From: Physcomitrium patens
Taxonomy: Eukaryota > Streptophyta > Bryopsida > Funariales > Funariaceae
Length of the DNA: 64,000 nt
Direction: 5' to 3'
NCBI RefSeq assembly: GCF_000002425.4
Contig: NC_037262.1
Coordinates: 10,639,243-10,703,242 of the forward strand
The notes beneath the pieces were generated by a model. It was not told the DNA's origin and did no database searches. It saw only the letters and a program-made list of their open reading frames with translations. How positions within the stretch are numbered: the first letter of the stretch is position 1; each line of letters opens with the position of its first letter. Made by a program: the position numbers and the translations under genes. Below are positions 2,497-60,764 of this stretch, piece after piece.

Positions 2497-3057
2497 TGTC
2501 ATGGCCATAATCATGTAAGCTAATAATTACATATAGAAATAGGTAGAAGTAAATAAAAGTAGGTAAAAGTAAGTTAATTTTATAATATTTAATATAGAAG
2601 CTTCTTAGAAATTTTTTAGACGCTGCTTTGACTTCATAGGTGTCTTTAATTGACTTTTTGGATTATAAACGTGATCAACAAGTTGGCCATGTGCCACACA
2701 TATTGTTAGCTTGAAGATCAAGCTAACCATGTGGCCCACACGTAGAAAAACTTGCCTTGTAAGTCAAGGCATGTGCCCTATAAAGTCAACACATATTGGA
2801 GGTCCTATAGAACGTCACCACGTAGCCCCTAGTTAGAGAGTATATATAGAGACAAGAGTGAAGGCTTCTTCACTCTTGTCAACTCCTTTCTTGCTTCTAG
2901 TCTAGTTTCAAGGGTCTCTAGTTTTCTTGTCTTTTGGCAATAGCCATTCCAGTTCGTCTTTTAATATATATACTTATTTATATATATTTTGTTACTTCTC
3001 TTTGAGTGAAGGCTCACTTGTCTGAATTGTTTTTTCATCGAGTTCTTGTCCTTGACA
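2497..3057 (+). repeat. 3' LTR of chromovirus A1 (561 bp)
   Basis: Begins TGTCATGG and ends CCTTGACA. It has the same length as the two LTRs of A3 and is similar to the 530-bp LTRs of A2. A TATATATA box is at 2841-2848, and the expected RNA start, ACTCTTGTCAA, is at 2872-2882, 31 nt after the TATA start. A perfect 13-bp inverted repeat with a 4-nt spacer (2851-2863 and 2868-2880) overlaps that start. The 5' LTR is outside the window, so the target duplication cannot be checked. Confidence 0.9.
2841..2882 (+). promoter_or_regulatory. LTR promoter: TATA box and predicted RNA start (A1)
   Basis: TATATATA is followed 31 nt later by the 11-mer that pairs with the primer-binding site in A2 and A3. 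The spacing fits a plant RNA polymerase II TATA-to-start distance. The start is predicted, not mapped. Confidence 0.7.
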
Positions 3058-13221: not shown

Positions 13222-13538
13222 TCATTGTATGGCATCCACCTTATTAAGATCAAGTTTGCGACCAAACCATCCACACAAATGATCCACAATAATAACTTCT
13301 CGAACTCCAAAGCTAGATTTAGGTCCTAATAGTGTCAAGTGAACCTCTTCAAGTCGAGATAAAATTTTATCATAGTCTAAAATATGATTAAATACAAATT
13401 TACAGCACCCCTTCTCATCCATTGTTTCATTTTTCTCTTCTTCCATACACCCTTTTATTAGAATATTATCCAAGAGGGGCATAGTCTTTTTTAGAATGAA
13501 ATCACAAAGAATCTTATTCATGCCATTCATCATGTGAG
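13222..13538 (-). pseudogene. Reverse transcriptase, C-terminal part, of element C
   Basis: Reads HMMNGMNKILCDFI then MPLLDNILIKGC, then SRLEEVHLTLLGPKSSFG. The usual F/YLDD box is LLDN, so one catalytic Asp is lost. The frame is cut at 13538 by the insertion of A2; the preceding residues (ATNLVA) resume at 19868-19889. Confidence 0.7.
13534..13538. repeat. Target duplication GTGAG of A2, left copy
   Basis: GTGAG here and at 19868-19872 flank A2 exactly, a 5-bp duplication as expected of Ty3/gypsy integration. Confidence 0.95.
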
Positions 13539-14068
13539 TGTCACGGACATACATATAATTACCTATATGAATAGATAAAAGTATGTAAAAGTAGATAAAA
13601 GTAGGTTAATTGTGTAATATCTTCTAGAGAAGCTTCTTAGAAGCTTCATAGACGTTGCTTTGACTTTATAGGAGTCTATAGTTGACTTTTAGGCTAGAAA
13701 CTTGGTCAACAAGTTAGCCATGTGCCACACATGTTGGAAGCTTAAAGAACAAGCTAACTACGTGGTCCATCCATAGAAAACTTGCCTTATAAGCAAAGGC
13801 ATGTGGCCTAGAAAGTCAACATATATTGGAGGTCTTATAGAACATCGCCATGTGGCTTCTAGTTAGATAGTATATATAGAGGCAAGAGTGAAGCCCTCTT
13901 CACTCTTGTCAACTCCTTTCTTGCTTCTAGTCCAGGTTCAAGAGTCTTTAGTTTCTTGTCTTGTGGCAATAGCCATTCCAGTTTCCTTTTAATATACCTA
14001 CTTGTTTATATTATATCGAGAAAGCCTTTTGGAGTATATTTTTCCTCATCGAGTCTTTGTCCTTGACA
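13539..14068 (+). repeat. 5' LTR of A2 (530 bp)
   Basis: Starts TGTCACGGACATACATA and ends TTTGTCCTTGACA. TATATATA is at 13871-13878. The predicted RNA start, ACTCTTGTCAA, is at 13902-13912. R-U5 would therefore be 13902-14068. An 11-bp perfect inverted repeat, 13883-13893 with 13898-13908, spans the start. Confidence 0.95.
13871..13912 (+). promoter_or_regulatory. LTR promoter of A2: TATA box and predicted start
   Basis: TATATATA at 13871 and the A of the predicted start at 13902 are 31 nt apart. The first 11 nt of that RNA would be complementary to 14071-14081. The start is inferred from this pairing. Confidence 0.7.
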
Positions 14069-14070
14069 GA

Positions 14071-14081
14071 TTGACAAGAGT
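14071..14081 (+). other. Predicted self-priming primer-binding site of A2
   Basis: TTGACAAGAGT, 2 nt after the LTR end, is the exact reverse complement of the predicted RNA 5' end at 13902-13912. The arrangement is like that of yeast Tf1, where the folded-back mRNA end primes minus-strand synthesis (family knowledge). A4 has a different but equally complementary 11-mer at the same 2-nt offset. Confidence 0.8.
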
Positions 14082-14158
14082 ACACTTACAATATCAGAGC
14101 TTTGTTTTTTCTTGAGTAAGAGTGGATTACCCCTTTCTCTTGACAAGACATAAGCGTA

Positions 14159-14187
14159 TTAGAAGTTTGCGGATTACCCACTTCTAA
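14159..14187 (+). other. Leader stem-loop with GCGGATTACC loop (A2)
   Basis: Arms TTAGAAG (14159-14165) and CTTCTAA (14181-14187) enclose a 15-nt loop containing TTGCGGATTACCC. A4 keeps the loop but has arms TTTAGAGG/CCTCTAAA, so the stem covaries. It lies in the 5' leader ahead of gag and could be a packaging or dimerisation signal. Confidence 0.6.
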
Positions 14188-14280
14188 ACTGATATTGTTC
14201 TTAGTATCTTCTTTGTTATCAAGTCTTTCTTTTCTTTTGTCTTGAGCAATATCAAACAAATTTTTCTTCTTAGTGTCATT

Positions 14281-15285: not shown

Positions 15286-18200
15286 GGACCGTGCACCTGG
15301 AACCTTGTACAATTCCTAATGAAGGTCCTATCCTCTCCTCAAAACCCTCTCCTTGTTTTATAATAGACTTATATTTAGGACCTAAGAATTACAAAGCCTC
15401 TGCTTTATTAGATTCGGGAGCCTCAGCATGTTTTTTAGATGAACAATTTGTTAAAAGTCGTAAAATACCCTATGTACAGAAACCTAAACCAGTACATGTA
15501 GAAGTCATAGATGGTCGTCCCTTGTCTTCTGGAGATGTCACTCATGAAACTCATCCTATAAAAGTAACAATAGACGGTCATGATAGCTACATAGCTTTTA
15601 ACATAATTAAATCCCCGTCCAATCCAGTTATTTTAGGTTTATCCTGGCTAGAAAAATATAACCCTCGAATAGATTGGAATTCGCGTAAACTTGACTTTTC
15701 CAAAAGCGTTATTAATAGTTCTACGAACCAAGTAAAAAATTATAAGTCTAGTACAGTAAAACCCGTACTGATAGGTGCAAAAGCATTTATACATGCAGCA
15801 AAAGAAGGATCAACTTTTGCTATTTATGCTGCACCTATTTCTGAAAACATAAAGACTTCAAGTGGCATTCCAAGTCAATATCAGGAGTATCAAGACGTTT
15901 TTGAGAAAAAGAATGCAGATATTCTTCCTGAGCATCGTCCATATGATTGTTCAATCGACCTCAAGGAAGGAACTCAGCCACCATTTGGACCAATTTACAG
16001 TTTATCGCAAGATGAGATGGCTGAACTCAAGACATATATTGACGAGAATTTAGCGAAGAATTTCATACGCCATTCAAAATCTCCAGCAGGAGCTCCAATT
16101 CTATTCGTAAAGAAAAAAGATGGATCTTTACGAATGTGTGTTGATTATCGAGGACTCAACAAGATCACAATCAAGAACAGGTATCCATTACCTTTGATAT
16201 CAGGACTCCTTGACTAGTTGAATCAAGCTAAGATCTATACAAAAATGGATCTAAGAGGAGCATATAATCTAGTACGGATCAAAGAAGGAGATGAATGGAA
16301 GACTGCGTTTCGAACCAGGTATGGACATTTCGAATATAATGTCATGCCCTTTGGACTCACGAATGCACCAGCTGCTTTTCAACATCTCATGAATGATGTA
16401 TTTCGTGAATTCTTAGACAATTTTGTCATCTGCTATCTAGACGATATCCTGATCTATTCCAAGAACGTCGAAAAACATGAAATACATGTTCGTCAAGTAT
16501 TACAAAAACTTAGAGATGCAGGATTGTACGCCAAGATGGAAAAGTGTGTATTTCACACTACTCAAGTTGACTTTTTAGGATACATCATTTCAAATGATGG
16601 TCTCATGATGGATTCTAAGAAAGTCCAAACAATCGTGGATTAGAAGATTCCAAGGACAGTAAGAGATGTTCAATGTTTCTTGGGATTTGCCAATTACTAT
16701 CGGATCTTCATCAAAGATTTCTCACGAGTTGCAGCTCCACTTACACGCTTGACTAGTAAAGATAAATTTCAATGGAATCAAGAAGCGGAAGCAGCATTTG
16801 AAGCCTTGAAGACATCGTTTGTATCTGCACCAGTCTTATATCGTGTTGACTTTTCCAAGGCATTTTTTATGGAAACAGATGCATCAAATTTTGCCTTGGG
16901 TGCAGTTTTATCACAAATGGGAATAGATGACAAACTCCATCTGATAGCTTTTCATTCAAGAAAATTCTCAGCAGCCGAGATCAATTATGAGATCCACGAT
17001 AAAGAACTTCTTGCGATCGTGGATTCCTTTCAAGAATGGTGTCATTATCTAGAAGGTGCTTCTAGTCCAGTCACTGTGTATACAGATCACAAGAACCTCG
17101 AGTATTTCATGTCAGTACGCGTGTTGAATCGTCGTCAAGCTCGTTGGAGTATGTCTTTGTCAAGATTCGAGTTCATTATCACTTATCGGCCAGGAAAATA
17201 ACAAGGTTTATCCGATGCCCTATCTAGACGTTCTTATTTTGTACCAAAAGAAAGAGATGCAGCTTTTGAGCAACAAAAAACGGTCCTCTTGAAACCAGAG
17301 CAATTTCATCTCCGAGCAATGAAATCAACATTGACTGTTGATTCAACTTTTCTCAAGCAAATCCAGTCCAGTATGTCCTCAGACCCTCTTGTTTATGATA
17401 TCGAGAATAATTCTTCCAAGTCTCATGATCCTTCTAAGTTCAAGTTCAAGAATAATCTATTATATTTTGAAAGACGCCTATATGTTCCAGAAAGAGAAGC
17501 ACGTTTACGTGTTCTTCAAGCACGTCATGACTTTCCAGCAGCAGGGCACTTTGGATATAATAAGACTTTGGAACTCATATCAAGAGATTTTTGGTGGCCA
17601 CAAATGTGGAAGTCAGTCAAAGACTTTGTACAATCATGTGATATTTGTTCAAGATCAAAAATTCCTCGTCATCGACCTTACGGACTTCTTCAGCCATTAC
17701 CTATACCAGAACAACCATGGTCTTCTGTTTCTATGGATTTCATCACAGATCTTCCAAGCTCAAGATCTTATGATTCTATATTTGTGATAGTAGATCGTTT
17801 CACCAAGATGGCACATTTTGTGCCATGTACAAAATCTATCACAGGTGAAGAAACAGCTAAGCTTTTCATTGATAATATTTATCGCTATCATGGATTACCT
17901 AAAGATATCATATCGGATAGGGGAACTCAATTTGTGTCAAGATTTTGGAGGACCCTTTTCAAGATTTTAAAAGTGGACATAAAACTATCTTCGGCTTTTC
18001 ATCCTCAAACTGATGGACAAACAGAGCGCGTAAACCAAGTCTTGGAGCAATATTTAAGGTGTACTATCAACTACCAACAAGATGATTGGACAACCCTTCT
18101 GCCATTGGCAGAGTTTGCTTATAATAATACGGTACATTCTTCCACGCAACAAACACCTTTCTTTGCCAATTATGGCTATCATCCACGACTTGATACTTTT

Positions 18201-18779
18201 GATTTTTCAAAAGTTGATAATCCTGCAGCAGAAGATATGGCAAATCGGATGTCAGAGTTACATGCAATAATGAAGACACAATTGAAGGAAGCTCAAGAAC
18301 AACAAAAGATAAACGCAGATCTATATCGTAAGGAGCAATCGCAGATCAACGTGGGTGATAAGGTATGGCTACTTCGTCGCAATATCAAGACTACTCGACC
18401 TTGTGACAAGTTGGACTATCGTAGGCTTGGCCCCTTTTCTGTTTCTGAACAGATCAACCCAGTTGCATATCGGTTACATCTACCAGAGTCAATGAAGATC
18501 CATCCTGTATTCCACGTATCTCTTCTTGAACCATATAAGACAGTGGATATACAAGGAAGAAGACAAATGCCACCGCCTCCTATAAAAGTAGATAATAATG
18601 AAGAATTTGAGGTGGAAGAGATATTAGACTCAAGGCGACGTCGAAATAAGCTGGAATATCTTGTTCATTGGCGCGGATATGATATTAGTGAACGCACATG
18701 GGAGCCATCCAGGAATCTAGCAAATGCATCAACTAAAGTCAAAGTTTTTCATCAACGACATCCATCAAAACCAAGATGA
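15222..18779 (+). pseudogene. pol of A2 in the -1 frame, three premature stops
   Basis: The pol frame is open from 15222 and overlaps gag by 64 nt, so expression needs a -1 shift there or reinitiation. Domains: protease with [13 protein letters not shown] (about 15400); reverse transcriptase from [17 protein letters not shown] (about 16070) through YLDDILIYS (about 16440); RNase H (16850-17200); integrase HHCC finger with HDFPAAGHFGYNKT and CDIC; D,D,E core; chromodomain FEVEEILDSRRRRNK near the end. Stops are TAG at 16215 (Gln codon elsewhere), TAG at 16641 (Trp) and TAA at 17199 (Gln), all explicable by C-to-T or G-to-A changes. No frameshift was seen. Confidence 0.92.
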
Positions 18780-19337: not shown

Positions 19338-19867
19338 TGTCACGGACATACATATAATTACCTATATGAATAGATAAAAGTATGTAAAAGTAGATAAAAG
19401 TAGGTTAATTGTGTAATATCTTCTAGAGAAGCTTCTTAGAAGCTTCATAGACGCTGCTTTGACTTTATAGGAGTCTATAGTTGACTTTTAGGCTAGAAAC
19501 TTGGTCAACAAGTTAGCCATGTGCCACACATGTTGGAAGCTTAAAGAACAAGCTAACTACGTGGTCCATCCATAGAAAACTTGCCTTATAAGCAAAGGCA
19601 TGTGGCCTAAAAAGTCAACATATATTGGAGGTCTTATAGAACATCGCCATGTGGCTTCTAGTTAGATAGTATATATAGAGGCAAGAGTGAAGCCCTCTTC
19701 ACTCTTGTCAACTCCTTTCTTGCTTCTAGTCTAGGTTCAAGAGTCTTTAGTTTCTTGTCTTGTGGCAATAGCCATTCCAGTTTCCTTTTAATATACCTAC
19801 TTGTTTATATTATATCGAGATAGCCTTTTGGTGTATATTTTTCCTCATCGAGTCTTTGTCCTTGACA
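19338..19867 (+). repeat. 3' LTR of A2 (530 bp)
   Basis: Same length as the 5' LTR and about 99% identical. It ends CCTTGACA and is followed by the GTGAG duplication at 19868-19872. Confidence 0.95.
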
Positions 19868-19889
19868 GTGAGCTACCAAGTTTGTTGCT

Positions 19890-22221: not shown

Positions 22222-22782
22222 TGTCAAGGACAAGAACTCGATGAAAAAATAATTCAAATAAGTAAGCCTTCACTCAAAGAGAGGTAACAAAATATATAAA
22301 AACAAGTATATATATTGAAAGAGAAACTCGAATGACTATTGCCAAAAGACGAGAAAACTAGAGACCCTTGAAACTAGACTAGAAGCAAGAAAAGAGTTGA
22401 CAAGAGTGAAGAAGCCTTCACTCTTGTCTCTATATATACTATCTAACTAGAGGCTATGTGGCGACGTTCTATAGGACCTCCAATATGTGTTGACTTTGTA
22501 GGACACATGCCTTGACTTACAAGGCAAGTTTTTCTACGTATGGACCACATAGTTAGCTTGATCTTCAAGCTAACAATATGTGTGGCACATGGTCAACTTA
22601 TTAACCACGTTTTTAATCCAAAAAGTCAATTAAAGATACCTATGAAGTAAAAGCACCCTCTATGAAGCTTCTGGGAAGCTTTCATATTAAATACTATAGA
22701 ATTAACTTACTTTTACCTATTTTTACTTACTTCTACCTATTTTTATATATAATTACTAGCTTATATGATTATGTCCGTGACA
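22222..22782 (-). repeat. 3' LTR of A3 (561 bp)
   Basis: On the plus strand it starts TGTCAAGGACAAG and ends ATGTCCGTGACA. The predicted RNA start sequence (its complement TTGACAAGAGT on the plus strand) is at 22397-22407. The polypurine tract of A3 adjoins at 22786-22797. Confidence 0.92.
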
Positions 22783-22823
22783 TTACCCCCCCTTCTAGGG
22801 ACGAGTTCCACGAGGAGCGATCA

Positions 22824-23246
22824 TCATATGTTGAGGAAATCTATGATATGACAAATTGTATTCGCCACATACTCTGATCTTTGTTCTCTTCGAAGATGAT
22901 TGATAGGGCCTCTCAACCATTGGTAGTATCCCATACTAGGGCAGAAAGACCACCCAATTATTTGATCATTGTTGAGGCCTTCGTAACTTCCTTCAAATAG
23001 GATATTTGGAACACCATCAGGAGTTGTTCCTACCTCTAGTACAATCACCAAACATCGGGAGTCCCTTCCCAAATCGTGATATCAAACGGGTTGTATCTTG
23101 CCATCTATTCCAGGAAGAACATGTCATTCTTGAAGATCTTTAGCTCGATTACGTCGTCTTGAAGGTTGTGACAATCGTAATATCTCGTCCGACAGATCAG
23201 CAAATAAAGGCTCTTGAGTTGAATCCACTGGTTATTGGTTCTCCAT
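22824..23246 (-). pseudogene. ORF3 of A3, unknown small protein (at least two stops)
   Basis: Again exactly 423 bp between ATG and stop. Reads GRDSRCLVIVLEVGTTPDGV, LFEGSYEGLNNDQIIGW, MGYYQWLRGPINHL, YVANTICHIIDFLNI. In the first half codon 5 is TAA (Gln in A1) and a second stop is TGA (Arg in A1/A2). There is no indel despite the decay. Function unknown. Confidence 0.72.
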
Positions 23247-23340
23247 CTCTTGAGCATCACTACTACAAAGAAGCTACGAACAAGAATTGAAAGTAGAATG
23301 TTATCTTGCCTAGATGTTGTTTCTTTTATAAAAAAGATTT

Positions 23341-26300
23341 TCATCTTAATTTTGATGGATGTCGTCGATGAAAAGCCTCCACCGCCTTTGTTGCATTTAC
23401 AAGATTCTTTATTGGCTCCCATGTGCGTTCACTAATACCATATGCGCACCAATGGATAAGATATTTTAATTTATTTTGGTGCCACCTTGAATCTAAGACT
23501 TCTTCTACTTCAAAATCTTCATTATTGTCCACTTGTATAGGAGGAGGTAGAGCTTGTCGTCTTCTTGGAATGTCCACTGTCTTGTATGGTTCAAGAAGAG
23601 ATACGTAGAATATAGCATGGATTTTCATTGACTCCGGTAGATGTAAACAATATGCAACTGGATTGATTTGTGCAGAAATAGAAAATGGTCCCAGCTTGTC
23701 ACAAGGACGAGTGGTCTTGCTATTATGACAAAGTAGCCATACCTTATCATCTAAGATGAATGATGGTTGTTCCTTTTGATAGACATCTGCATTGACCTTT
23801 TGTTGTTCTTGAGCCTCTTTTAAATGTGCCTTCATTTTTGCATGTAGCTTTGATAAATGAATTGCCAAATCTTTCGCAGCAGGATTATCAACTTTTGAAA
23901 AGTCAAAAGTATCAAATTATGGATGATAACCATAATTAGCAAAGAAAGGTGTTTGTTTTGTAGAAGAATGTACCGTGTTATTGTAAGGAAACTCTGCCAA
24001 TGGTAAAAGAGTTATCCAATCATCTTGTTAGTAGTTAATGATACATTTTAAATATTGCTCCAAAACTTGATTAACACGCTCTGTTTGTCCATCAGTTTGA
24101 GGATGGAATGTCGAAGATAGTTTTATATCCACTTTAAGAATCTTGAAAAGAGTCCGCCAAAATCTTGATACAAATTGAGTTCCCCTATTTGATATAATAT
24201 CCTTGGATAATCCATGATAGCGATAGATATTGTCAAAAAAGAGCTTAGTTGTTTCTTCACCTATGATAGATTTTATACATGGTACAAAATGTGCCATCTT
24301 GGTAAAACGATCTACTATCACGAATATAGAGTTATAAGAACCTGAGATTAGAAGATCCATGATGAAGTCCATAGAAGCAGAAGACCATGGTTGTTCTAGA
24401 ATGGGTAATGGCTGAAGAAGTCCAAAAGATCGATGACGAGGAGTTTTTGATCTTGAACAAACATCACATGATTGTACAAAATCTTTGACTACCTTCCACA
24501 TTTGAAGCCACCAAAAATTCCTAGATATTAGCTCCAAAGTCTTATTATATCCAAAATATCCTAGTACTAGAAAGTCATGACGAGCTTGAAGAATACGTAA
24601 ACGTGCTTCTCCTTCTAGAATATATAGACGTCCTTCGAAATAAAGTAAGTTGTTCTTGAATTCAAATTTAGAATGATCATGACATTTAGAAGAATTATTC
24701 TTAATATCATGAATAAGAAGATCTGAAGACATACTTAACTGGACTTGCTTAAGAAAAGTTAAATCAACAATCAATTTTGATTTTATTGCTCAAAGATGAA
24801 ATTGCTCCGGCTTCAAGAGAACCGTTCTTTGTTGCTCAAAAGCTGCATCTCTTTCTTTTGGTGTAAGATAAGAACGTCTAGACAAGGCATTGGACAAACC
24901 TTGTTATTTTTCTGGCCGATAAGTGATGATGAACTTGAATCTTGATAAAGACATGCTCCAACGAGCTTGGCGACAATTTAATACGCATGTTGACATAAAA
25001 TATTCAAGGTTCTTGTGATCCGTATATATGGTGATTAGACTAGAAGTGCCTTCTAGATAATGATGCCATTCTTGAAAAGAATCTATAATTGCAAGAAGTT
25101 CTTTATCGTGGATCTCATAATTGATTTCTACTACTGAGAATTTTCTTGAATGAAAGGCTACTGGATGAAGTTTGTCATTTTTTCCCATTTGTGATAAAAT
25201 CACACCCAGAATAAAGTCTGATGCATCTATTTCCATAAAGAATGCTTTGGAAAAATCAACACGATACAAGATTCATGCAGAAATAAACGCTATCTTCAAA
25301 GATTCAAAATCAACTTTCACTCCTTGATTCCATTGGAATTTGTCTTTATAAGTCAAACGTATAAGTGGAGCTGCAACTCGAGAAAAGTTTTTGATGAAGA
25401 TCCGATAGTAGTTGGCAAATCCCAAAAAACATTGGACATCTCTTATCATTTTTGGAATCTTCCAATCTATAATAGTTTGAACTTTCTTAGGATCTATTAT
25501 AAGTCCATCATTTGAAATGATGTAACCTAAGAAATTGACTTGAGTAGTGTGGAATACACACTTTTCTATCTTGGCATAGAGTCTTGCATCTCTTAATTTT
25601 TGTAAGACACGACGAACATGAAGTTCATGTTCTTCTAGATTCTTAGAATAGATCAAGATGTCGTCTAAATAACAGACCACAAAATCGTCGAAAAACTCTC
25701 AAAAAACATCATTCATTAGATGTTGAAAAGCTGCTGGTGTATTTGTAAGTCCAAAAGGCATGATGTTGTATTCAAAATATCCATACTTAGTTCGAAATGC
25801 AATCTTTCATTCATCTCCTTCTTTGATGCGTACTAGATTGTATGCTCCCCGAAGATTTATTTTTGTATAGATCTTAGCTTGATTCAACTAATCAAGAAGT
25901 CCAAATATTAAAGGTAGTGGATACCTGTTCTTGATGGTAATCTTGTTGAATCCTCAATAATCAACACACATCCGCAATGATCCATCTTTTTTCTTCACAA
26001 ATAGAATTCGAGCTCCTGTCGGAGATTTAGAATGGCATATGAAATTCTTGGCTAGATTTTCTTCAATATATTTCTTGAGTTCAGTCAACTCATTTTGTGA
26101 TAAACTATAGATTGGTCCGAATGGCGGTTATGCTCCTTCTTGGAGGTCAATTGAGCAATCATAGGGACGATGTTCTAGAAGTGTATCCGCATTCTTTTTT
26201 TCGAATACATCTTAAAATTCTTGATATTGGCTTGATGCCACTTGAATTCTTTCCACTAGTAGAAACAGGTGTGGCATAAATAATATATGGTGATTCTTTC

Positions 26301-26845
26301 ATAGTAGCATGCAAGAAAGCTTTTGTACCTATAAATACGGGTTTAATTGAATTGGACTTATGACTTTCTACTTGATTAACTACACTGTTAGTTATACTTT
26401 TAGAGAAAGTAAGAGTTCGGAAAATCCAATCTATTTGAGGGTTGTATTTTTTTAACCACAATAAACCTAAAATGACTGGATTAGAGGGAGATCTAATGAT
26501 ATTAAATACTACAAAACTATTATGACCATTGATTATTACTTCTATAGGAAGGATTTTGTGAGTAATATCTCCAGAAGATAATTGACGACCATCTATGACT
26601 TCTACATGAACAGGTTTACTTTTCTTTACTAAAGATATGCTATCTCTTTTAGTAAATTCTTCATCTAAAAAACATGCTGAGGCTCCTGAATCTAACAAGA
26701 CAGAGACTTTGTAATGTTTAGGTCCTAAAATAACATATAATATAAAACAAGGAGAGGGCACTAAGGAGAGAATATGACCTTTATTAGATGTTGTGCAAGA
26801 TTCCAGTCGCACGGTCCCTATTGTAGCTGGACAAACTCGTTTTCC
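23341..26845 (-). pseudogene. pol of A3 (protease to chromodomain), broken
   Basis: Read on the minus strand: protease with [16 protein letters not shown] (about 26700); a frameshift near 26230; reverse transcriptase with [11 protein letters not shown] at 25675-25640; RNase H 25269-24904 (MEIDASDFILG, HDKELLAIID, YTDHKNLEYF); integrase 24774-24028 with CDVC, SMDF, TQFVS and TDGQTERVN; chromodomain 23540-23341 (DFEVEEVLDSRWHQNKL). There are several premature stops. It shares very high similarity with pol of A1 and A2. Confidence 0.9.
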
Positions 26846-27173
26846 TGTTAGGGACATAATACTTAGAACCTTCTAGAGACAAGTTTCTAGAACCTTCTAG
26901 AAGTAAGTCTCTGGAACCTTTTAAAAGCTTTCTAGTTAATAGAAGTTATTTAAGAAGCTTCCTAATTGGTGGAAGTTGCTTGAGAAGCTTCCTAAATAAG
27001 AGTATATATTGGAATCGAGGCTGATGAGTTCTTTAGTCTCGACAACACATCTCTTGGAGCTCTAGCTCACCTCTCTGGTGTTGCTCTTGTACTCATTTGA
27101 TTAATCTAGTTCTTGTCAGTTCTTCTTGAATTTCTTGTTAGATTTTGAGTCTTTATTTTTGTGTCCGTGACAG
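26846..27173 (+). repeat. 5' LTR of A4 (328 bp)
   Basis: Starts TGTTAGGGACATAATAC and ends TGTGTCCGTGACA. Two copies of a 30-bp unit are at 26932-26991. TATATATT is at 27003-27010 and the predicted start AGTCTCGACAA at 27035-27045, 32 nt from the TATA start. An imperfect palindrome, 27015-27026 with 27031-27042, overlaps the start. Confidence 0.93.
27003..27045 (+). promoter_or_regulatory. LTR promoter of A4: TATA box and predicted start
   Basis: TATATATT is followed by AGTCTCGACAA 32 nt later. The 11-mer pairs perfectly with 27176-27186 just outside the LTR. Confidence 0.65.
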
Positions 27174-27175
27174 TT

Positions 27176-27186
27176 TGTCGAGACTA
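27176..27186 (+). other. Predicted self-priming primer-binding site of A4
   Basis: TTGTCGAGACT starts 2 nt after the LTR end (27173) and is the reverse complement of 27035-27045. The pairing extends to 14 nt if TAAA at 27186-27189 and TTTA at 27032-27035 are included. The sequence differs from that of A2 but the geometry is the same. Confidence 0.8.
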
Positions 27187-27224
27187 AACTCACCTCTGAT
27201 ATCAGAGCTAGTTTCTTCCTCATT

Positions 27225-27408
27225 AGAGTGTGGATTACCCCTTTACTTGAAGGTGTACTAGCGTTTTAGAGGTTGCGGATTACCCTCCTCTAAACTGATA
27301 CTTCTTTTGTAACAATATTGGAGTCTTATTCTTCTTAGAGAGAGTGGATTACCCCTTTTCTTGAAGCTCTTAAGGCGTTTTAGAGGTTGTGGAGTATCCT
27401 CTTCTAAA
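27225..27408 (+). other. Duplicated leader stem-loop module of A4
   Basis: Two tandem copies of about 80-90 bp. Each has a GGATTACCCCTTT stretch followed by a hairpin. Hairpin 1 has arms TTTAGAGG (27265-27272) and CCTCTAAA (27287-27294) and a 14-nt loop TTGCGGATTACCCT. Hairpin 2 is at 27379-27408 with one G-T pair and a mutated loop. A2 and A3 have one module. Confidence 0.6.
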
Positions 27409-27452
27409 CCAATATTGTCTTCTTGTAGAGTCATTTTTGTCCTTCTTTTAGA

Positions 27453-28477
27453 ATGGCCGGAGGCCAAGACATTAGTATGACAGAAAGTTCGGAGTCGAAG
27501 TTGGATGCTATCATGAATGTCCTCACTACGTTATCACAAAGAACTCTAGAGATTGAAGGAGTTATAGCAAGGCTTCATAATGATGGAGCATCTGGGATGG
27601 CACAATCTAGGTTGCACCAGCCTCAAACTTCTACACTTGGAGAAACAAATTTCCCCAAGTTCGACAAGCACCGCTAGTTCTACAACATAAGGAGCCCCGA
27701 GTTAGCCTTCCGGACAAGTTCGATGGTACGCGTTCCAAATTTCGAGGATTCGTCAATCAAATCAGGTTAATAACATTTTTACAACCTAAACGCTATCCAA
27801 CAGAGGAGTCACGTGTTGGGCTTGTTGGAACCTTACTTACGGGACAAGCTCTATCATGGTTTGCTCCTTTGTTTGGAAAATGATCATCCATACTAAACAA
27901 CTTTGAAACCTTTTTGGAGGCATTAGCGGAAGCATTTGGTAAACACGACAAGGTTCGATGGGCCACAACAAAGATTCAGTCACAACGACAAGGAATGCAC
28001 TCAACATCAATCTATGCATCGGATTTCAGGCAATTAATATGCGACATCAATTGGGACGAAGAAGCGTTGATGAGTCAATTCTATTGGGGTTTAAGAGACA
28101 ATATGAAGGATTTGTTGTTAACTCTTCCTGATCCACGAACGTTCAACGAAGCTATTAGCCAAGCTGTGAAGTATGATAACCGCCTATTCCAACATCGCCA
28201 AGACCAACGCTTAAGACAACATATGATTCGCCATGCCCCAACTATGTCGGCAAGCAGTGTGAATTCACATTCAGAAGTGGAAGACATGCAAATTGACGTA
28301 GTACGTATCAAATTCCTTACTCTAGAAGAAAAAAAGCGACGTATGGAGGAAGGTCTATGTTTGTATTGCGGCGGAGAAGGCCACAAAGTTAGAAATTGCC
28401 CTAAGAAGCAAAAGCAACGCACTGTCAAGACCAGGGGCGCATTTATTCAAGAAAACGAGGATGCCCAGCCACAATAA
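27453..28477 (+). pseudogene. gag of A4, frameshifted
   Basis: Starts MAGGQDISMTESSESKLDA. A frame change lies near 27600-27690, before LPDKFDGTRSKFRGFVNQI. One TGA is at about 27881. The capsid continues with LLTGQALSWFAPLFG and FGKHDKVRWATTKIQSQRQG, then SEVEDMQIDVVRIKFL and the CCHC knuckle CLYCGGEGHKVRNC. It ends in TAA inside the pol overlap. Confidence 0.88.
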
Positions 28478-31400
28478 GAACCGTGCGGCTAGACAGTGGA
28501 ATATTACAAGAACAACCAGGTTCCTTTCTTTCTGCTCAACCTACCCTTTGTTTTATAATCCCTTTGTTTATTGGCCCTCAGAAACTGAGAACCTTAGCAC
28601 TATTAGATTCAGGAGCATCTGCTTGTTTCTTAGACGAAGAATTTGTAAAGCATCATAAGATTCTTTTAGTACAAAAATCCAAACTTGTTCACGTTGAGGT
28701 CATAGTTGGGTGACCATTATTGTCTAATAATGTCACCTATGAATCGAAATCTATAGAACTGACGTTTAAGGGCCATAGTAGTAATATTATTTTCAATAAT
28801 ATTAGAATCCCATCAAATCCTGTTATTCTTGGTCTTTCTTGGTTGAAAAAGTATAATCCATCCATAGATTGGAGATTGCGAAAGATGATATTTTCCACAA
28901 AACCATCCAAGAGCAAGCCTAGTAGAAGACCTCGAATAACGAAATCCTTATTCATTGGAGCAAGAGCATTTGTAAGATTGTCCAAGGAAGGCGCACCATT
29001 TATCATTTATGTGACTCCAACTATCAAGGAGAAGATCTTGACAGCAAGTATACTAGAGCAATACAAAGATTTTGAAGACGTGTTTCAAAAGAAGAATGTT
29101 GACATGCTACCGGAACACCGACCATATGATTGTGCCATAGACTTGCAAGAAGGAGCACAACCACTTTTTGGTCCAATCTACAATCTATCGCAAATAGAAT
29201 TGACAAAGTTGGAGAAATATATTGACGAGAATCTAGCCAAGAACTTCATCTCTCATTCAAAATCGCCAGCTGGGGCACCCATCTTATTTGTAAAGAAGTA
29301 AGATGGATCTTTATGGATGTGCGTGGACTATCGAGGCCTCAACAAGGTAACAAAGAAGAACCGTTATCCATTACCCTTGATTTCTGGTCTCTTAGAACAA
29401 CTTGGACATGCGAGGATCTTTACAAAAATTGATCTAAGGGGAGCTTACAACCTCGTACAAATCAAGGAAGGAGATGAGTGGAAGACAACGTTCCGTATAA
29501 GGTATGACCATTTTGAGTACAATATCATGCCCTTTGGTCTTACTAATGCTCCAGCGGTCTTTCAACATATGATGAATGACATCTTTTGAGAGCACCTTGA
29601 TGATTTTGTTGTCATCTATTTTGATGATATTCTGATATTCTCCAAAAATGAGGAAGAGCATGAGAAGCATGTTTGTCTGGTTTTGGAGAAACTACAAGAG
29701 CAAGGATTGTACGCCAAGTTAGAGAAGTGTTTATTTCATCAAAAACAGATGGAGTTTTTGGGATTTGTTGTGACTACAGAAGACTTAAAGATGGATTGCA
29801 AGAAGGTGGAAGCAATCGTGTCCTGGGAGGTTCCGAAGACAGTTAGAGACATACAATGCTTTCTTGGTTTTGCTAACTTCTATCAGATCTTCATCAAAAA
29901 TTACTCTCAAGTTGCTGCTCCTCTCACTCGGTTGACAGGCAAGGATAAGCTGGAATGGAGACCTCTAGCGGAAAAGGCGTTTCAAGATCTAAAAACAACA
30001 TTTACTATGGCTCCAATCTAAGTACATCCAGACTTTACAAAGGCCTTTTATTTAGAAAGTGATGTTTCGGACTTTGCTTTGGGAGTTGTACTTTCACAAA
30101 TGGGTGAAGACAAGAAGCTCCATCCAATTGCATTCTATTCTCGGAAGTTCTCTGCTGCTAAAATCAATTATGATATCTACTATAAAGAACTTCTTGCTAT
30201 AGTGGATTCTTTCCAAGAATGGCGTCACTTTCTTGAAGGAGCTGCACATCTAGTGACCGTATACACGGATCACAAGAATTTGGAGTATTTCATGTCAGCT
30301 CGAGTTCTAAATCGGCGTCAAACTCGGTGGAATATGTCGCTATCTAGGTTTGATTTTGTTATTACTTATCGACCTGGAAAGCAGCAAGGACTATCCGATG
30401 CCTTATCGAGGAGATCGTATCTTGCACCAAAGGCTAGAGAAGCAGCGTTTGATCAACAATGTATGACGTTGTTGAAGCCAGAGCAATTTCGGCTTTGCGC
30501 TACTATTGTGTCAATTGATGCTGACTTCCTGAATCAGGTACGTGCCGTGACCATTGAAGATTCAGTAGCCATTGATATCAAGCAACAAGCCAATGACGAC
30601 AAGTTCAAAGTGGAAGGAGATCTTTTATACTTTGAGGAGCGATTGTATATTCTAAAAGGACCAGCACAACTCCGAGTTCTTCAATCTCGCCACGATTTTC
30701 CAAGTGCTGGATATTTTGGATTCAACAAGACCTTGGAGCTTATTTCTCGAGATTTTTGGTGGCCTCAAATGTGAAAAGATGTGAAAGATTTTGTCCTCTC
30801 TTGCGACATCTGTTCAAGATCTAAATATCCTCGACATTGTCCTTATGGATTTCTACAACCATTGCCAATTCCACATCGACCATGGTCTTTAGTTTCCATG
30901 GACTTCATCACGGACCTGCCATCATCGAACTCATTTGACAGCATCTTTGTCGTGGTAGATCGGCTTACGAAGTTGATGCACTTTGTCCCTTGCAAGAAGA
31001 CATCGTCTAGTATCGTCACAGCAAGGCTCTTTCTTCATAATGTGTATCGATATCATGGACTACCAAATGATATCATATCAGATCGAGGAACCCAATTCGT
31101 GTCAAAGTTTTGGAGATCTCTCTTTGAGATATTGAAAGTGGATATCAAGCTTTCTTCTGCTTTTCATCCTCAAACTGACGGCCAAACGGAACGGGTGAAC
31201 TAAGTCTTGGAGTAGTACTTACGATACAGCATCAACTACCAGCAAGACGATTAGACTGCATATTTGTCGCTAATCAAGTTTGCATATAACAACAGCCTCC
31301 ATGCATCGACTCAATACATACCATTCTTTTTCAACTATGGATATCATCCAAAGCTTGATTTATTGAGTTCGTCAACAAATAATAATCCAGCAGCTGAAGG

Positions 31401-31955
31401 ATTTGCGAAGCAACTATCAGAGCTTCAAACTACGTTGAAGCTTCAATTACAATCTGCTCAAGAATCCTACAAGGCGTCTGCAGATAGATTTCGGAATCAA
31501 GCACCTACTTTCAAAGTTGGAGATAAAGCTTGGCTTCTTCGACGGAATATCAAAATCAAGCGACCGTGTGATAAGTTGGACTATCAAAGATTGGGACCAT
31601 TTATCATCTAGAAGCAAATCAATCTAGTGGCGTATTGTCTGGAGTACCGGCTTCTATGAAGATACATCCAGTCTTTCATGTTTCTTTGTTGGAACCTTAT
31701 CGAGCGTCATCTTTTCTTGGAAGAGTGCAATGTCCACCACCTAGTATTGAGATCAAGAACCACAAAGAATATGAGGTCGAGAAGGTACTAGATTCACATC
31801 GAAGGTAGAGCAAGTTAGAGTATCATGTTCATTGGTGCGACTACGATATTAATGAACAAACGTGGGAGCCAGCTAAAAATCTTGTCAATGCACCGCAAAA
31901 GGTACAGGAGTTTCATCAACGACATCCTCATAAACCCAAGCTATTTCGACGATAG
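28466..31955 (+). pseudogene. pol of A4 in the -1 frame, multiple stops
   Basis: The frame begins in the gag overlap (PATIRTVRLD). Protease [17 protein letters not shown]; reverse transcriptase [13 protein letters not shown] then [15 protein letters not shown]; catalytic box YFDDILIFSKN near 29617; RNase H HKNLEYFMSARVLNRRQ; integrase CDIC, SMDFITDLPSS and TDGQTERVN; chromodomain [13 protein letters not shown] near 31770. In-frame stops near 28711, 29299, 29587, 30019, 30775, 31204 and 31609, plus a 1-base shift near 31640. Confidence 0.9.
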
Positions 31956-32087
31956 CTTCTTTCTGAAGCTTGCTCATCTAAGAATATAAGAAAGGGGGGA
32001 GAGGACCACCAAAATTCGTAGTTGATGTAGTTATTTTCTCCAAGAAAGAGTAGAATTATTTTAGTAGCCATAGTTTGGTCTTCTTGT

Positions 32088-32441
32088 ATGGATAACCAAG
32101 AGATAGATACTTTGTCAGTCAGATTATCTCAACCAACTAGCTCACGAAGGTGATCCCGAGATGAAGAACTGCCTGCACTACAACGACGACAAAAGATACC
32201 GAGTAACTGATCACTGGTAATTTTATTTGAGTTCGAGCCTGCTTACGATGGTCAGTCAAAAGGCGTGTTTGCAGGACAATTTCACAATGAGGATACGAAA
32301 GTTCATGCTTGGTCAAAAGTCGAAGGCATGGGCCACTACCATTGGCTTCAAGGGTCGATGAACCACTTACCTTGTGAACAATAGTTGGAGTTCATAGCAA
32401 ACGTTATGCGACAGATCTTCATTTTCTTGCATTGGTACTGA
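32088..32441 (+). pseudogene. ORF3 of A4, diverged homologue
   Basis: A 118-codon frame from ATG (MDNQEIDTLSVRLSQP), 132 nt after pol, with stops at three codons. It aligns with ORF3 of A1-A3: RLSQPTSSRR, SRDEEL, SLVILFEFEP, GVFAGQFHNEDTKVHAW, MGHYHWLQGSMNHL, LEFIANVMRQIFIFL. Survival across two families that share little leader or LTR sequence argues for a real protein. Confidence 0.65.
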
Positions 32442-32477
32442 TTCATAACAACATTGCTTCTCAGAGACCTTGAAGCT

Positions 32478-32491
32478 AAAAAAGGGGATGA
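32478..32491 (+). other. Polypurine tract of A4
   Basis: Six A and four G, then ATGA, then the LTR's TG. Confidence 0.8.
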
Positions 32492-32908
32492 TGTTAGGGA
32501 CATAGTCCTTAGAATCTTCTAGAGACAAGTTTCTAGAACCTTCTAGAAGTAAGTCTCTGGAATCTTCTAGAAGCTTTCTAATTAATGGAAGTTGCTTAAG
32601 AAGCTTCATAATTGGTGAAAGTTGCTTGAGAAGCTTTTTAGTTGATAGAAGTTACTTGAGAAGCTTCTTAGTTGGTGGAAGTTGCTTGAGAAGCTTCCTA
32701 GTTGGTGAAAGTTACTTGAGAAGCTTCCTAAATAGGAATATATATTAGAATCAAGGCTGAAGAGTTCTTCAGTCTCGACAACACATCTCTTGGAGCTCTA
32801 GCTCACCTCTCTGGTGTTGTTCTTGTACTCATCTGATTAATCTAGTTCTTGCCAATTCTTCTTGAATTTCTTATTAGATTTCGAGTCTGTATTTTTGTGT
32901 CCATGACA
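32492..32908 (+). repeat. 3' LTR of A4 (417 bp)
   Basis: Starts TGTTAGGGACATAGTCC and ends TGTGTCCATGACA. Five tandem 30-bp units at 32578-32727 explain the 89-bp excess over the 5' LTR. TATATATT is at 32739-32746 and the predicted start at 32771. A 12-bp palindrome with one mismatch and one G-T pair lies at 32751-32762/32767-32778. Confidence 0.93.
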
Positions 32909-32913
32909 TTTCC

Positions 32914-33893
32914 GACATATTGTCTTCTTTCATAGCCATATTCCTCATTTTGTTATTGCATCATTTCTTTGGACAATGTTGAGTAGTGTGCTTTGATTCT
33001 CTACAATATAAACATAATCCTTCTTAACGACGACAAGTCTTTTCTTGCTCAGTAAGAGGTTTGAAACGTACTGCATCAATTTGCATATCCTCTACTTTCG
33101 AATGTATGTGTTGAAGAGGTGTTGGTGTTGCCATTGAATTATAGTAACGTTGAGGTCCACTTGTACGATTCTCAAATCGGAATTCAAAAAGGTGATTGTC
33201 GCACTTCACAGCAAAGTCAATTGCTTGACTCAATGTTTGAGGATCAGATAAGTTGAGCATTAATTTTTTTACTTCATATTGTAATCCATAGAGAAATTGG
33301 CTAATAAGTGCAGCATCATCCCACTTGATATCAGTTGTAAGTTGTTGAAATTGTGAAGCGTATAATGTTACTCATCAATTGCCTTGTCATAAAATATGGA
33401 TCTTATTGGTTGCAACACGAATTGTAACATGTTCTCCATACATGGATCGAAATTCTACCAAAAAAGCCTCTAGATTATCCAATATTGGATCTCGTCGTTC
33501 AAGAAAAGATGAAAACCACAATAATGCTAAACCTGAAAGAAGCGTACCAATGAATCTAACTTGCAATCCTAGAGTTGGATAGCTTTGGGGTTGAAGTTCA
33601 ATCACAAGTTGCACTTGATTGATAAATCCTCAAAACTTAGATTTGGTGCCATCAAACTTCTCGGGTATGGCAATTCTTGGTTCTTTAACATTTCAAGGGC
33701 GTTCCACCATAAGAGAAAGGACATGGTTTGGTGCAGATGTTGAAGCAGCTCCAATCATTTCTATATCTTCACTTCCTGCCAATCTTGTTGCTCCTTGTGG
33801 TGGTAAATTGAGTTGATGCATCACAAGTATTAACTTCTTCAATTTCTCTTGTATTTGTGCCATTGTACTCTTCATTTCAACAAGTTTTGCCAT
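32914..33893 (-). pseudogene. gag of A3, separated from its end by A4
   Basis: From 33893 (MAKLVEMKSTMAQIQEKL) with capsid LLSGLALLWFSSFLERRD, FRSMYGEHVTIRVATNK and LSDPQTLSQAIDFAVKCD; SKVEDMQIDAVRFKPL; knuckle CLYCRESKHTTQHC. Several stops. The frame reaches 32914, is cut by A4, and its last codons lie at 26845-26818 (GlnLeuGln stop). Confidence 0.88.
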
Positions 33894-33987
33894 GATAATA
33901 CTTAGAAGAGAGAAGATGTCTAATATTGCTCAAGACAAATAGAAGAGAGGACTTGAGAACAAAGAAAATACTAAGGATAATATCAGT

Positions 33988-34015
33988 TTAGAAGAGAGTA
34001 ATCCGCAACTTCTAA
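33988..34015 (-). other. Leader stem-loop of A3
   Basis: Arms TTAGAAG and CTTCTAA enclose a 14-nt loop that reads TTGCGGATTACTCT on the minus strand. Same position and loop as in A2 and A4. Confidence 0.6.
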
Positions 34016-34092
34016 TATGCTTATATCTTATCAAGAAAAAGGGGTAATCTACTCTTAATCAAGATTAGACAAAGCTCTGATATTATAGGTGT

Positions 34093-34103
34093 ACTCTTGT
34101 CAA
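34093..34103 (-). other. Predicted self-priming primer-binding site of A3
   Basis: Minus-strand TTGACAAGAGT lies 2 nt after the LTR end, complementary to the predicted RNA start in the LTR (34281-34291). Confidence 0.75.
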
Positions 34104-34105
34104 TC

Positions 34106-34666
34106 GGTCAAGGACAAGAACTCGATGAAAAAATAATTCAGATAAGTGAGCCTTCACTCAAAGTGAGGTAACAAAATATATATAAACAAGTATGTATATT
34201 GAAAGAGAAACTGGAATGGCTATTGCCAAAAGACGAGAAAACTAGAGACCCTTAAAACTAGACTAGAAGCAAGAAAAGAGTTGACAAGAGTGAAGAAGCC
34301 TTCACTCTTGTCTCTATATATACTATCTAACTAGAGGCTATGTGGCGACGTTCTATAGGACCTCCAATATGTGTTGACTTTGTAGGACACATGCCTTGAC
34401 TTACAAGGCAAGTTTTTCTACGTATGGGCCACATAGTTAGCTTGATCTTGAAGCTAACAATATGTGTAGCACATGGCCAACTTGTTGACCATGTTTCTAA
34501 TCGAAAAATTCAATTAAAGACACCTATGAAATAAAAGCACTGTCTATGAAGCTTCTAGGAAGCTTCTATATTAAATACTATAGAATTAACTTACTTTTAC
34601 CTACTTTTACTTACTTCTATCTATTTATATATGTAATTACTAGCGTACATGATTATGTCCGTGAGA
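34106..34666 (-). repeat. 5' LTR of A3 (561 bp)
   Basis: Matches 22222-22782 over its full length. Both outer dinucleotides carry a substitution. The predicted start sequence is at 34281-34291 (minus strand). Confidence 0.9.
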
Positions 34667-41876: not shown

Positions 41877-41993
41877 ACATATATTTGTAGTTAATTGATA
41901 GATTAGGAACCTGGTCAACAAACCTTATCCACAAGCTACCAACAAGGATTCTTGATTAGGTTCCTAATCTATCAATTAACTACAAATATATGT
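41877..41993. repeat. Perfect 36-bp inverted repeat in the A5 LTR
   Basis: Arms 41877-41912 and 41958-41993 are exact reverse complements, separated by 45 nt. The spacer also holds GCTACCAACA, complementary to the sequence just after the right arm. Other A LTRs lack it, so it is a local inverted duplication. Confidence 0.9.
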
Positions 41994-42728
41994 GTTGGTA
42001 GCTTACGAAATAAGCTAATTATGTGGCAACCATATAAAAAACTTACCTTGCAAGTCAAGATACGTGTTATATAAAGTCAACATGTTTTTACAAGTCCTAT
42101 AGAACATTGATATATAAATCTTAAGTAGATAGTATATATAGAAAAAAGAGTGAGGTCTTCTTCAGTCTTATCAACTCCTTTCTTACTTTTAGTCTAGATT
42201 CAAGAGTCTTTAATTTTCTTCTCTTTTAGTAATAGTCAATTCAATTTTCTTTTAATATATATATTATTTTATTTCTTTTTTTTACTTTTCTTTTTATAAG
42301 GATTTCTTAAATTTATGCATCTTTTTTTAGTTCATATCTTCGATACTCAAAATATTAAATAAAGAAAATATTTTATACAAACTAATGAAAGTTATTATAA
42401 GAAATATAGTTTATAAATATTGTTTCCGATATTAATATATCATATTATTTTTATAGTGGTTTAAAGACAAATCTATAGATTACTTATATCTTTATTATAT
42501 TAAAATTAAAGTTCAAATCAAAGTTGGCAAGTATTATTAATTTTTTTTTTTAAGTCATGGTCATCTCCTATGTGGACAATAGAACTTAATTAAGTTGTTA
42601 TGGATTTAAATCTATATAATTTCTATTTTGAATCTCAATAAAATTATAGGTGCTATTAATATTAAACTATTAACAAAGCAAGGAGTTGCTACATGTAGAA
42701 ATATGTTGAGTCAAATACAAATAATTGT

Positions 42729-44045
42729 TCTTTTTGTTATTTTAGATCAAAGTCTTAATATTTTCTTAATTAGTGGAATTATTAAAAATATAAGTTTTAA
42801 TTATTTAAATATAAATAAATCCTAATTAATTTAGTATTTTTACTCATTGTTTAATATTAAGGATTATTTATTGAGATCAATATCTATATTGGCCTTCTAG
42901 CTACATATATTATATATTAAAAGAAAACTATAAATATTATTTAATATTTTAAAGGAGCATGAGAAAGAACCTCATAATTTTTAATTTTTTTATATTAAAA
43001 ATATGATTTTTATTTGATTTAAATTGATTTTATTACTATAAAAAATCACAAAGATTAGAAAATATGGCTTTAATTTAATATTAGTATTATAAAAATATTA
43101 AAAATATTAGAATTTATTTAAATTTTATTTTTAATTATTTAGGGATTTTTAGGAAAAAATTTAAGGTTTTGATAAATTTGAATAATTACCACCTTACAAG
43201 TTATTATAAAGAAATGGAGCAATATTTTAAGGCTATACAAATATTCTAGACTAATTGGATACTTTTAAATACCATGATGAAGTTAAAAATATAAAAATAT
43301 TAGTTTTACTAATAAAAAATAAGAAGACTAGCAGTTAGTCTAGTCCTTATAAGAAAAGAAGTAAATAAGTCTTATTTGGATTGTAGCACCTTAAATGTAG
43401 GTAAGAAGATAAGATTAAGGCCTTGTGATCTTTTAAGGAGACCAATATATACTACATATGAGCCTTGGTGTAAGTCACACAATTGACTTACTAGTATGTT
43501 TTAATACAAAAAGGCTTTTATGGTACTTTAAGTCACTAGTTTAGGAAGTTAATATAGGAATCTTAAGACAAATAGCAAAAAATAGGATGTCAATGCGAGA
43601 AAGGATCCTTTGCATGGTTTCTTTGAAGAAGGATTTTAAAATAAACAATTTTTCTTTAATTTAGCTAATATAGATTTACAATTTTTTTATAATAGATTTC
43701 TTTCCATCAAAAGTTAATTGGATTATAAGCTAAATATAAACCTGATTTGGGCAATTCAAAAGAATAAAGAAAGAAAAAAATAGAAGAAAGAAATTAGAAG
43801 AAAAAAGGAAAAAGTAGAGAGAAGGTAAGAGACTAACAGGGAGAGAGTAGGGAGGAAAAAGTAAGAATAGAAGAAAAGCAGAGAAAGGAAGAAAAATCAG
43901 AAAAGAAAAGAGAAAAGAGAGAAGAAAAAGAAAGAAGATGATCCCTTACCTTCCGGATTTTTTGAAGGTGAAGGCTGATCCCAGCTTTTGGGAAAAGGTT
44001 GCCGGGGTCCGACGAAGCGCGCCCCAGACCTCATTTTTTTCTTTT

Positions 44046-44078
<33 letters not shown>

Positions 44079-47657: not shown

Positions 47658-47698
<41 letters not shown>

Positions 47699-51090: not shown

Positions 51091-51119
51091 AAAATTCATC
51101 AAAATTAAGATAAAGAATT

Positions 51120-60620: not shown

Positions 60621-60764
60621 CGTACTACCCACGTACTTTGAGATGAAGATATTTACCAAACAGTTACAGAGTTCTGTGCTACAAGCTGGAAAAATTCTGA
60701 ACAATTTTGTTACCCAATAGACTTTAGATCCTGGATTCTCAAAGGTTGCCAACCACATGTACAC

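Follow-up and report, generated by a model that had tools for sequence, protein, structure and literature searches.

Predicted Tf1-Like Self-Priming in Moss Chromoviruses and a Second Complementary Partner of the Primer at the U3 End

Introduction

The 64-kb stretch of Physcomitrium patens DNA analysed here (hereafter, the window) contains a group of LTR elements, termed A1-A4, and raises the question of how these elements prime reverse transcription. An earlier note on this DNA proposed a mechanism like that of Tf1, in which, according to the accessible portion of the source, the first 11 bases of the RNA act as the primer following a cut between nucleotides 11 and 12 (PMC7175516). The same note knew of no well-described plant case. 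As a claim of novelty this does not hold: Neumann et al. (2019), in the part of the paper that could be consulted, describe most elements of the Tcn1 clade, found in mosses and club-mosses only, as lacking a tRNA primer-binding site (PBS) and, in contrast to the other plant chromoviruses, predict that they self-prime; the same prediction is made for the plant Ty1/copia lineage TAR (PMC6317226). Thus, the idea was already in print as a prediction. Their approach was a blastn search for a complement of at least 10 bp starting no more than 5 bp from the LTR (PMC6317226, as accessible). A Selaginella Tcn1 element with neither type of priming was described by Novikova (2010; PMC2864245, seen in part).

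In the literature as far as it was accessible, plant self-priming has so far rested on sequence prediction. A genetically tractable moss in which an abundant chromodomain family is expressed would be well suited to proving it. RLG1 is such a family, according to the available part of its description (PMC7466625), and A1-A3 might, at a guess, belong to it. Self-priming itself being already predicted for the clade, the part of the present analysis without a counterpart in the literature searched is a complementary arm in U3, which joins the start of R and the PBS in a three-way complementarity.

The Elements and Their Affiliation

The argument draws on the following LTRs and coding region.

A2 5' LTR, 13539..14068, plus strand: 530 bp, starting TGTCACGG and ending TTGACA, preceded by the TSD GTGAG at 13534-13538
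A2 3' LTR, 19338..19867, plus strand: R word at 19701-19711, U3 arm at 19680-19692, followed by the TSD GTGAG at 19868-19872
A2 integrase with SH3_Tf2-1 and chromodomain, 17202..18776, plus strand: assigned from Pfam, homologues and a tree
A3 5' LTR, 34106..34666, minus strand: LTR end mutated, GACC instead of GACA
A4 5' LTR, 26846..27172, plus strand: preceded by the TSD TTTCC at 26841-26845, nested in A3
A4 3' LTR, 32492..32908, plus strand: R word at 32771-32781, U3 arm at 32750-32762, followed by the TSD TTTCC

The two LTRs of A2 share 99.06% identity over 530 bp, and GTGAG flanks the element on both sides. A4 is inserted in A3 (22222-34666, minus strand) with a clean TTTCC duplication, and stops occur in the integrases of both. 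One LTR of A4 is about 90 bp longer than the other: either part of U3 is tandemly duplicated in the 3' LTR, or the 5' LTR has lost one copy of it. Elsewhere in the window, decayed chromovirus remnants occupy 41900-51540 and 62584-63120, where the DNA is very AT-rich (20% GC at 48-52 kb) and where, by eye, many LTR differences resemble C-to-T decay. A moss kinase gene lies at 58923-60785 on the minus strand; it is 100% identical to P. patens proteins and has relatives in Ceratodon and Sphagnum.

The A elements are best explained as chromoviruses of the Tf1/Sushi-Tcn1 type. Their host, P. patens, lies within the moss or club-moss range of the Tcn1 clade. Among the best 120 of 7946 homologues of the A2 integrase, those that carry an organism name come from Anolis or the fungus Parasitella and are 45-47% identical. 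The chromodomain of A2 carries an aromatic cage of F469, W490 and Y493, with F in place of Y at the first position, the positions being assigned after what we take to be their counterparts in HP1. The assignment also follows the cage described in the accessible part of PMC3350952.

A scan of GTDB contigs for further relatives returned 24 contigs with a related integrase (L001-L024); scans of viral contigs and phages found no relative. The assemblies concerned are filed as bacteria or archaea (for example, an 'uncultured Trichormus' bin) and hold eukaryotic LTR-element stretches, probably as contamination. A midpoint-rooted integrase tree of 366 columns and 37 rows, in which L023 covers just 21% of the columns, unites A1-A4 with L001-L004, L023 and six unnamed proteins in a set of 15 rows (98/96). 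A wider set of 23 rows (95/80) adds Anolis, Parasitella, L005, L006 and L007-L009 and contains no contig with a tRNA motif, a separation that counts in favour of self-priming; L016 falls outside it on a long branch. As the rows of the tree do not include a named element of Tcn1, Tekay, Reina, CRM or Galadriel, assignment to the Tcn1 clade rests on the host, the chromodomain and the published distribution.

Pairing of the R Start With a Site Past the LTR

The sequences at issue in A2, A3 and A4 are as follows.

A2 TATA box TATATATA, 13871..13878, plus strand: in the 5' LTR, the R word beginning 31 nt from the start of the box
A2 presumed self-primer ACTCTTGTCAA, 13902..13912, plus strand: predicted first 11 nt of the transcript
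A2 putative PBS TTGACAAGAGT, 14071..14081, plus strand: 2 bases (GA) past the LTR
A3 presumed self-primer, 34281..34291, minus strand: same word as in A2; a U3 arm at 34300-34312 pairs with 34283-34295
A3 putative PBS, 34093..34103, minus strand: same word as the A2 PBS
A4 presumed self-primer AGTCTCGACAA, 27035..27045, plus strand: TATA offset 32
A4 putative PBS TTGTCGAGACT, 27175..27185, plus strand: complementarity to the 5' LTR extends to 27188

The exact complementarity of the two 11-mers of A2, with its TATA offset of 31 and its 2-nt gap, was found as the earlier note had described it, and A3 indeed shares both words, read on the minus strand at 34291-34281 and 34103-34093. For A4, the claim of other words with an exact 11-nt match, a 2-nt gap and an offset of 32 was upheld, while the PBS had to be moved from 27176-27186 to 27175-27185, and the pairing with the element's own 5' LTR is 14 nt long (27032-27045 with 27175-27188). 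The pairing common to both A4 LTRs is 11 nt because the 3' LTR reads CAG where the 5' LTR reads TAG. Over both strands of the window, ACTCTTGTCAA has seven exact occurrences (five R starts of LTRs and two PBS complements) and AGTCTCGACAA has three (two R starts and one PBS complement), so that every exact copy of either word is part of these LTR elements. The PBS site of a further window copy, S62, is decayed and unreadable.

Predicted RNA folds contain the duplex. Pair probabilities are 0.89-1.0 for 10 of the 11 pairs in A2 (0.38 for the last), 0.75-0.85 for 10 of 11 in A3 (0.34 for the last) and 0.89-1.0 for 10 of 11 in A4 (0.62 for the last). When the contigs L003, L004 and L023 are included, single-strand folds give at least 0.84 for the inner pairs and 0.34-0.98 for the end pairs. 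The A2 leader as a whole is more stable than its shuffles (z -4.2, 0 of 200), and that of A4 is no better than many (z -1.4, 19 of 200). In all six elements the R word also has a TATA offset of 31-32, and its presumed start falls on a C-A or T-A step. With the LTR ends fixed by the TSDs (GTGAG for A2, TTTCC for A4), the end of the cDNA comes within 2 bases of the PBS.

The 11-mers stand at the right places beyond chance. When the 60 nt that follow the TATA were base-shuffled, an exact PBS complement appeared at +20 to +50 in 8 of 400,000 trials for A2 and 2 of 400,000 for A4, and in 3, 3 and 1 per 200,000 for L003, L004 and L023. A looser test scored the longest complementary match that any part of the LTR makes with the 40 nt following it; dinucleotide shuffles equalled or exceeded the observed value in 6, 43 and 0 of 1000 cases for A2, A3 and A4, with A3 under-scored because its limits were 3 nt off. 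A blind scan of both strands was also made for CA, two bases and a word of at least 10 nt with an upstream complement, pairing into the gap being left out. Across the 24 contigs it gave 11 sense and 10 antisense hits, that is, background level; an end of the form TGACA followed by GA or GT was, however, present at 4 of the sense hits and at none of the antisense ones. In the window it gave 10 hits on the plus strand, including two from the present elements, and 5 on the minus strand, which do not include A3 with its mutated LTR end.

Compensatory Change in Relatives Outside the Window

LTR ends were located, and the pairing hence judged, in part of the 24 contigs. Four of these probable contaminants (L003, L004, L023 and L005) keep an exact 11-nt pairing with a 2-base gap. 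Three of them, L003, L004 and L023, group with the window elements and repeat the whole design: a TATA, 32 nt, an 11-mer, a TGACA end, GA or GT, and the exact complement. L003 and L004 use the words AAGGCGAACAA/TTGTTCGCCTT, and L023 uses the A4 word. The word AAGGCGAACAA differs from that of A2 at 7 of the 11 positions and from that of A4 at 6, the A2 and A4 words differing at 3. Nevertheless, R and PBS match at 11 of 11 positions within each of the six elements, as against 4-8 of 11 across words; positions R2-R8 vary across the three words, each time with the matching change in the PBS. The earlier argument from changed sequence with kept pairing can therefore now be made from outside the window as well. 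As three words underlie the six rows, the compensation amounts to three cases, not six.

The remaining contigs are less uniform. The more distant L005 pairs at 11 of 11 positions (TTACTTGGTAA), but lacks a TATA at the expected position, and its pair probability does not exceed 0.19. In L001, of the same clade and close to L003, only 7 of the 11 positions pair, by eye, with the element's 5' LTR; it is old or a mosaic, given that the 66 bp common to its two LTR pieces are 76% identical. Two contigs were left out of the support: L006, with a 13-nt word and no clear LTR end, and L016, whose words at 101 and 135 were placed by eye and which has a long tree branch. The latter is still labelled 'self' in the tree, and the blind-scan filter dropped it because its pairing runs one base into the gap.

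The covariation bears on the possibility that the primer at the 11-nt site is a half-tRNA or some other small RNA of the host. Half-tRNA priming is reported for some plant Ty1/copia lineages in the accessible part of PMC6317226, but a primer supplied by the host would not follow the element's own R start through its three words, and we regard this explanation as extremely improbable.

A tRNA-iMet Motif and the Structure of the Leader

One alternative is that tRNA-iMet primes at TATCAGAGC, about 20 bases past the LTR, and that the 11-mers are incidental. Downstream of the 5' LTR in each of A2, A3 and A4, this sequence matches 9 nt of TGGTATCAGAGC, which we take to be the plant tRNA-iMet PBS motif. 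Moreover, TGGTATCAGAGC occurs with at most one mismatch in 6 of the 24 contigs (L010, L011, L015, L018, L019 and L020, with L010/L011 and L018/L019 being near-copies), at positions unplaced relative to the LTR ends. Priming by tRNA-Met is also the commonest type in plants, as stated in the available part of PMC6317226. Against this, no TGG occurs in the first 30 nt past the LTR of A2, A3 or A4, where a tRNA-type PBS adjoining the LTR would need its TGG end, and a cDNA primed at TATCAGAGC would extend some 20 bases past the TSD-fixed LTR ends of A2 and A4. Furthermore, TATCAGAGC is absent from the next 150 nt in L003, L004, L023 and L005, all of which retain the pairing of the 11-mers. On these grounds TATCAGAGC was rejected as a real PBS, and priming by tRNA-iMet appears very unlikely.

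The motif overlaps a structural feature of the leader.

A2 leader stem, 5' strand ACAATATCAG, 14088..14097, plus strand: pairs with 14189-14198 and overlaps the tRNA-iMet-like TATCAGAGC at 14092-14100

In A2 the stem comprises 10 bp, ACAATATCAG/CTGATATTGT; its counterpart is ATAATATCAG/CTGATATTAT in A3, a compensatory change relative to A2, and TATCAG/CTGATA in A4. In all three elements TATCAG thus belongs to the 5' strand of the stem, which may explain the conservation of TATCAGAGC and also speaks against the tRNA-iMet reading.

Past the PBS (14088-14198; 27200-27300), the leader forms a closed domain, in which this long-range TATCAG/CTGATA stem surrounds hairpins at a repeated motif, GGATTACCC. 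The stem letters differ among A2, A3 and A4, and the domain is possibly a packaging or dimer signal. The A4 leader has the GGATTACCC hairpin domain twice, at 27232-27300 and 27346-27409, and a similar motif is present in L023. Searches of the 64-kb window with Rfam, at gathering thresholds, and with ARAGORN were negative.

Proposed Course of Priming

Self-priming is supported by the exact pairing, its position, the compensatory change across three words and the lack of a TGG at the site. Judged from these sequences, Tf1-like priming from the RNA's own first 11 nt is very probably the best explanation of the design. For the start site, cleavage, priming and trimming, we infer the following course. 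Transcription would start at the A about 31-32 nt after the TATA, yielding an RNA whose first 11 nt are complementary to the site 2 bases past the 5' LTR and which could fold back upon it. RNase H would then free the 11-nt end, the 3'-OH of which would prime minus-strand cDNA, and the two extra bases would presumably be trimmed by integrase.

A Third Complementary Partner at the U3 End

Besides the PBS, the R 11-mer has a second partner, absent from the earlier note. The bases just upstream of the R start, in a U3 arm that begins about 10 nt after the TATA start, are complementary to R, which produces a palindrome across the U3/R border.

A2 U3 arm, 13881..13893, plus strand: pairs with 13898-13910, the palindrome across the U3/R border being centred 6.5 nt upstream of the R start
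A4 U3 arm, 27014..27026, plus strand: imperfect; pairs with 27031-27043, one inner pair and the outermost pair failing
A1 3' LTR, U3 arm and R word, 2851..2882, plus strand: R word at 2872-2882; the A1 PBS is absent from the window

The palindrome is present in A2, A3, A4, L003, L004 and L023; in all six its centre lies 5.5 or 6.5 nt upstream of the R start, and it covers nucleotides 1-9 (1-8 in A4). With wobble pairs allowed, the arm matches R1-9 at 8-9 of 9 positions within elements and at 2-7 across words. The U3/R hairpin was assessed in seven LTR copies of the window, namely the 3' LTR of A1 and the LTR pairs of A2, A3 and A4; its predicted energies are -12.9 to -21.3 kcal/mol, reached by 0 of 500 base-shuffles in six copies and by 1 of 500 in the A4 5' LTR. 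The values for L003, L004 and L023 are -18.6, -18.6 and -22.5 (0 of 500 shuffles each). Among decayed window copies, assessed by energy without a shuffle comparison, S62 (-14.1) and S42 (-9.8) retain part of the hairpin and S51 (-1.2) hardly any. L005 has no U3 arm (hairpin -0.7, 153 of 500 shuffles as good), and L006 has no U3/R hairpin at its word (288 of 500 as good). As a sequence observation resting on three words, the three-way complementarity of U3 arm, R start and PBS is solid. No U3/R palindrome was found in the open-access literature searched, whose coverage of early Tf1 work is incomplete, and the main text of Neumann et al. (2019; PMC6317226) makes no mention of a palindrome, hairpin or inverted repeat.

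The palindrome could instead be a DNA promoter element whose arm the PBS resembles by descent, with no self-priming at all. The U3 arm and the PBS do have most letters in common, both being complements of R. Yet the pairing persists through changes at seven positions, which is hardly compatible with a factor that reads the sequence, and L005 keeps the R:PBS pairing without an arm. In A4, moreover, PBS and R match at 11 of 11 positions, compared with 8 of 9, including wobble, for the arm, so that R:PBS looks like the stricter constraint. We therefore give this promoter explanation a minimal chance and retain self-priming.

Under self-priming, a transcript that starts at the R word would lack the U3 arm at its 5' end and carry it in its 3' LTR. 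The arm, complementary to nucleotides 1-9 (1-8 in A4), might thus act as a built-in lock that folds over the spare 3' copy of the primer, leaving only a correctly started 5' end to reach the PBS and to prime; U3 arm, R start and PBS would then evolve as a three-way complementary set. We advance this lock tentatively. There is about an even chance that self-priming is right and that the arm has another role, such as DNA-level positioning of the start site, or is a trace of the copying of the border during reverse transcription. The palindrome includes U3 bases -4 to -1, outside the predicted 5' transcript end, and L005 self-pairs without an arm, both of which suit another role. On the other hand, the arm ends at nucleotide 9 in five of the six elements (nucleotide 8 in A4), its centre lies at one of the two distances given above in all six, and in five of six the hairpin exceeds the R:PBS duplex in stability.

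Predicted folding agrees in part with the lock. Leaders folded without a 3' piece form R:PBS in A2, A3, A4, L003, L004 and L023. Joint folds of the 5' leader and a 3' piece taken from the same LTR were scored as means over R2-R10. With the arm present, the 3' copy takes the PBS with a probability of at most 0.03 in all six folds; with the arm cut off, it does so with 0.84-0.99 in five of six, A2 staying at 0 and so showing no effect of the arm. With the arm present, the 5' R:PBS pairing is 0.97-0.99 in four elements, 0.25 in A4 and 0.02 in L023. The best folds of A4 and L023 do contain the hairpin, but in them the 5' end is paired to the distal end of the 3' piece; these two folds without the expected 5' pairing, like the behaviour of A2, favour another role for the arm. 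If true, the lock would explain why the 3' primer copy does not compete for the PBS in an RNA with identical ends. The combination of U3 arm, R and PBS also offers a three-way signature for finding such elements.

Comparison With Known Systems

Tf1/Tf2 of Schizosaccharomyces pombe, Tj1 and Tosmo/Tcry are, as far as the accessible parts of the sources describe them, like the moss elements in having an RNA 5' end complementary to the PBS, LTRs that end in CA, and a chromodomain (PMC7175516, PMC4600332, PMC10085805). For Tf1, a 'pretzel' with two further duplexes beside the PBS has also been described (PMC10085805, seen in part). Such side duplexes are inconsistent in the elements compared here. 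For the 5'-flank duplex, the number of matching shuffles out of 300 was 3 for A2, 7 for L003 and 4 for L004, and 89 for A3, 285 for A4, 287 for L023 and 136 for L005; for the 3'-flank duplex, at least 21 of 300 shuffles match in all seven elements. The accessible descriptions of Tf1, with which the comparison was made by description rather than by LTR sequence, mention no U3 arm.

The TAR lineage is Ty1/copia and lacks a chromodomain. Self-priming is likewise predicted in plants for this lineage (Houba, Osr-1), in the available part of PMC6317226. Finally, the Tcn1 clade of mosses and club-mosses, as portrayed in the accessible parts of Novikova (2010) and Neumann et al. (2019), and the elements described here have the same host group and type of chromodomain; in both, a tRNA PBS is lacking and priming is predicted to be by the element's own RNA.
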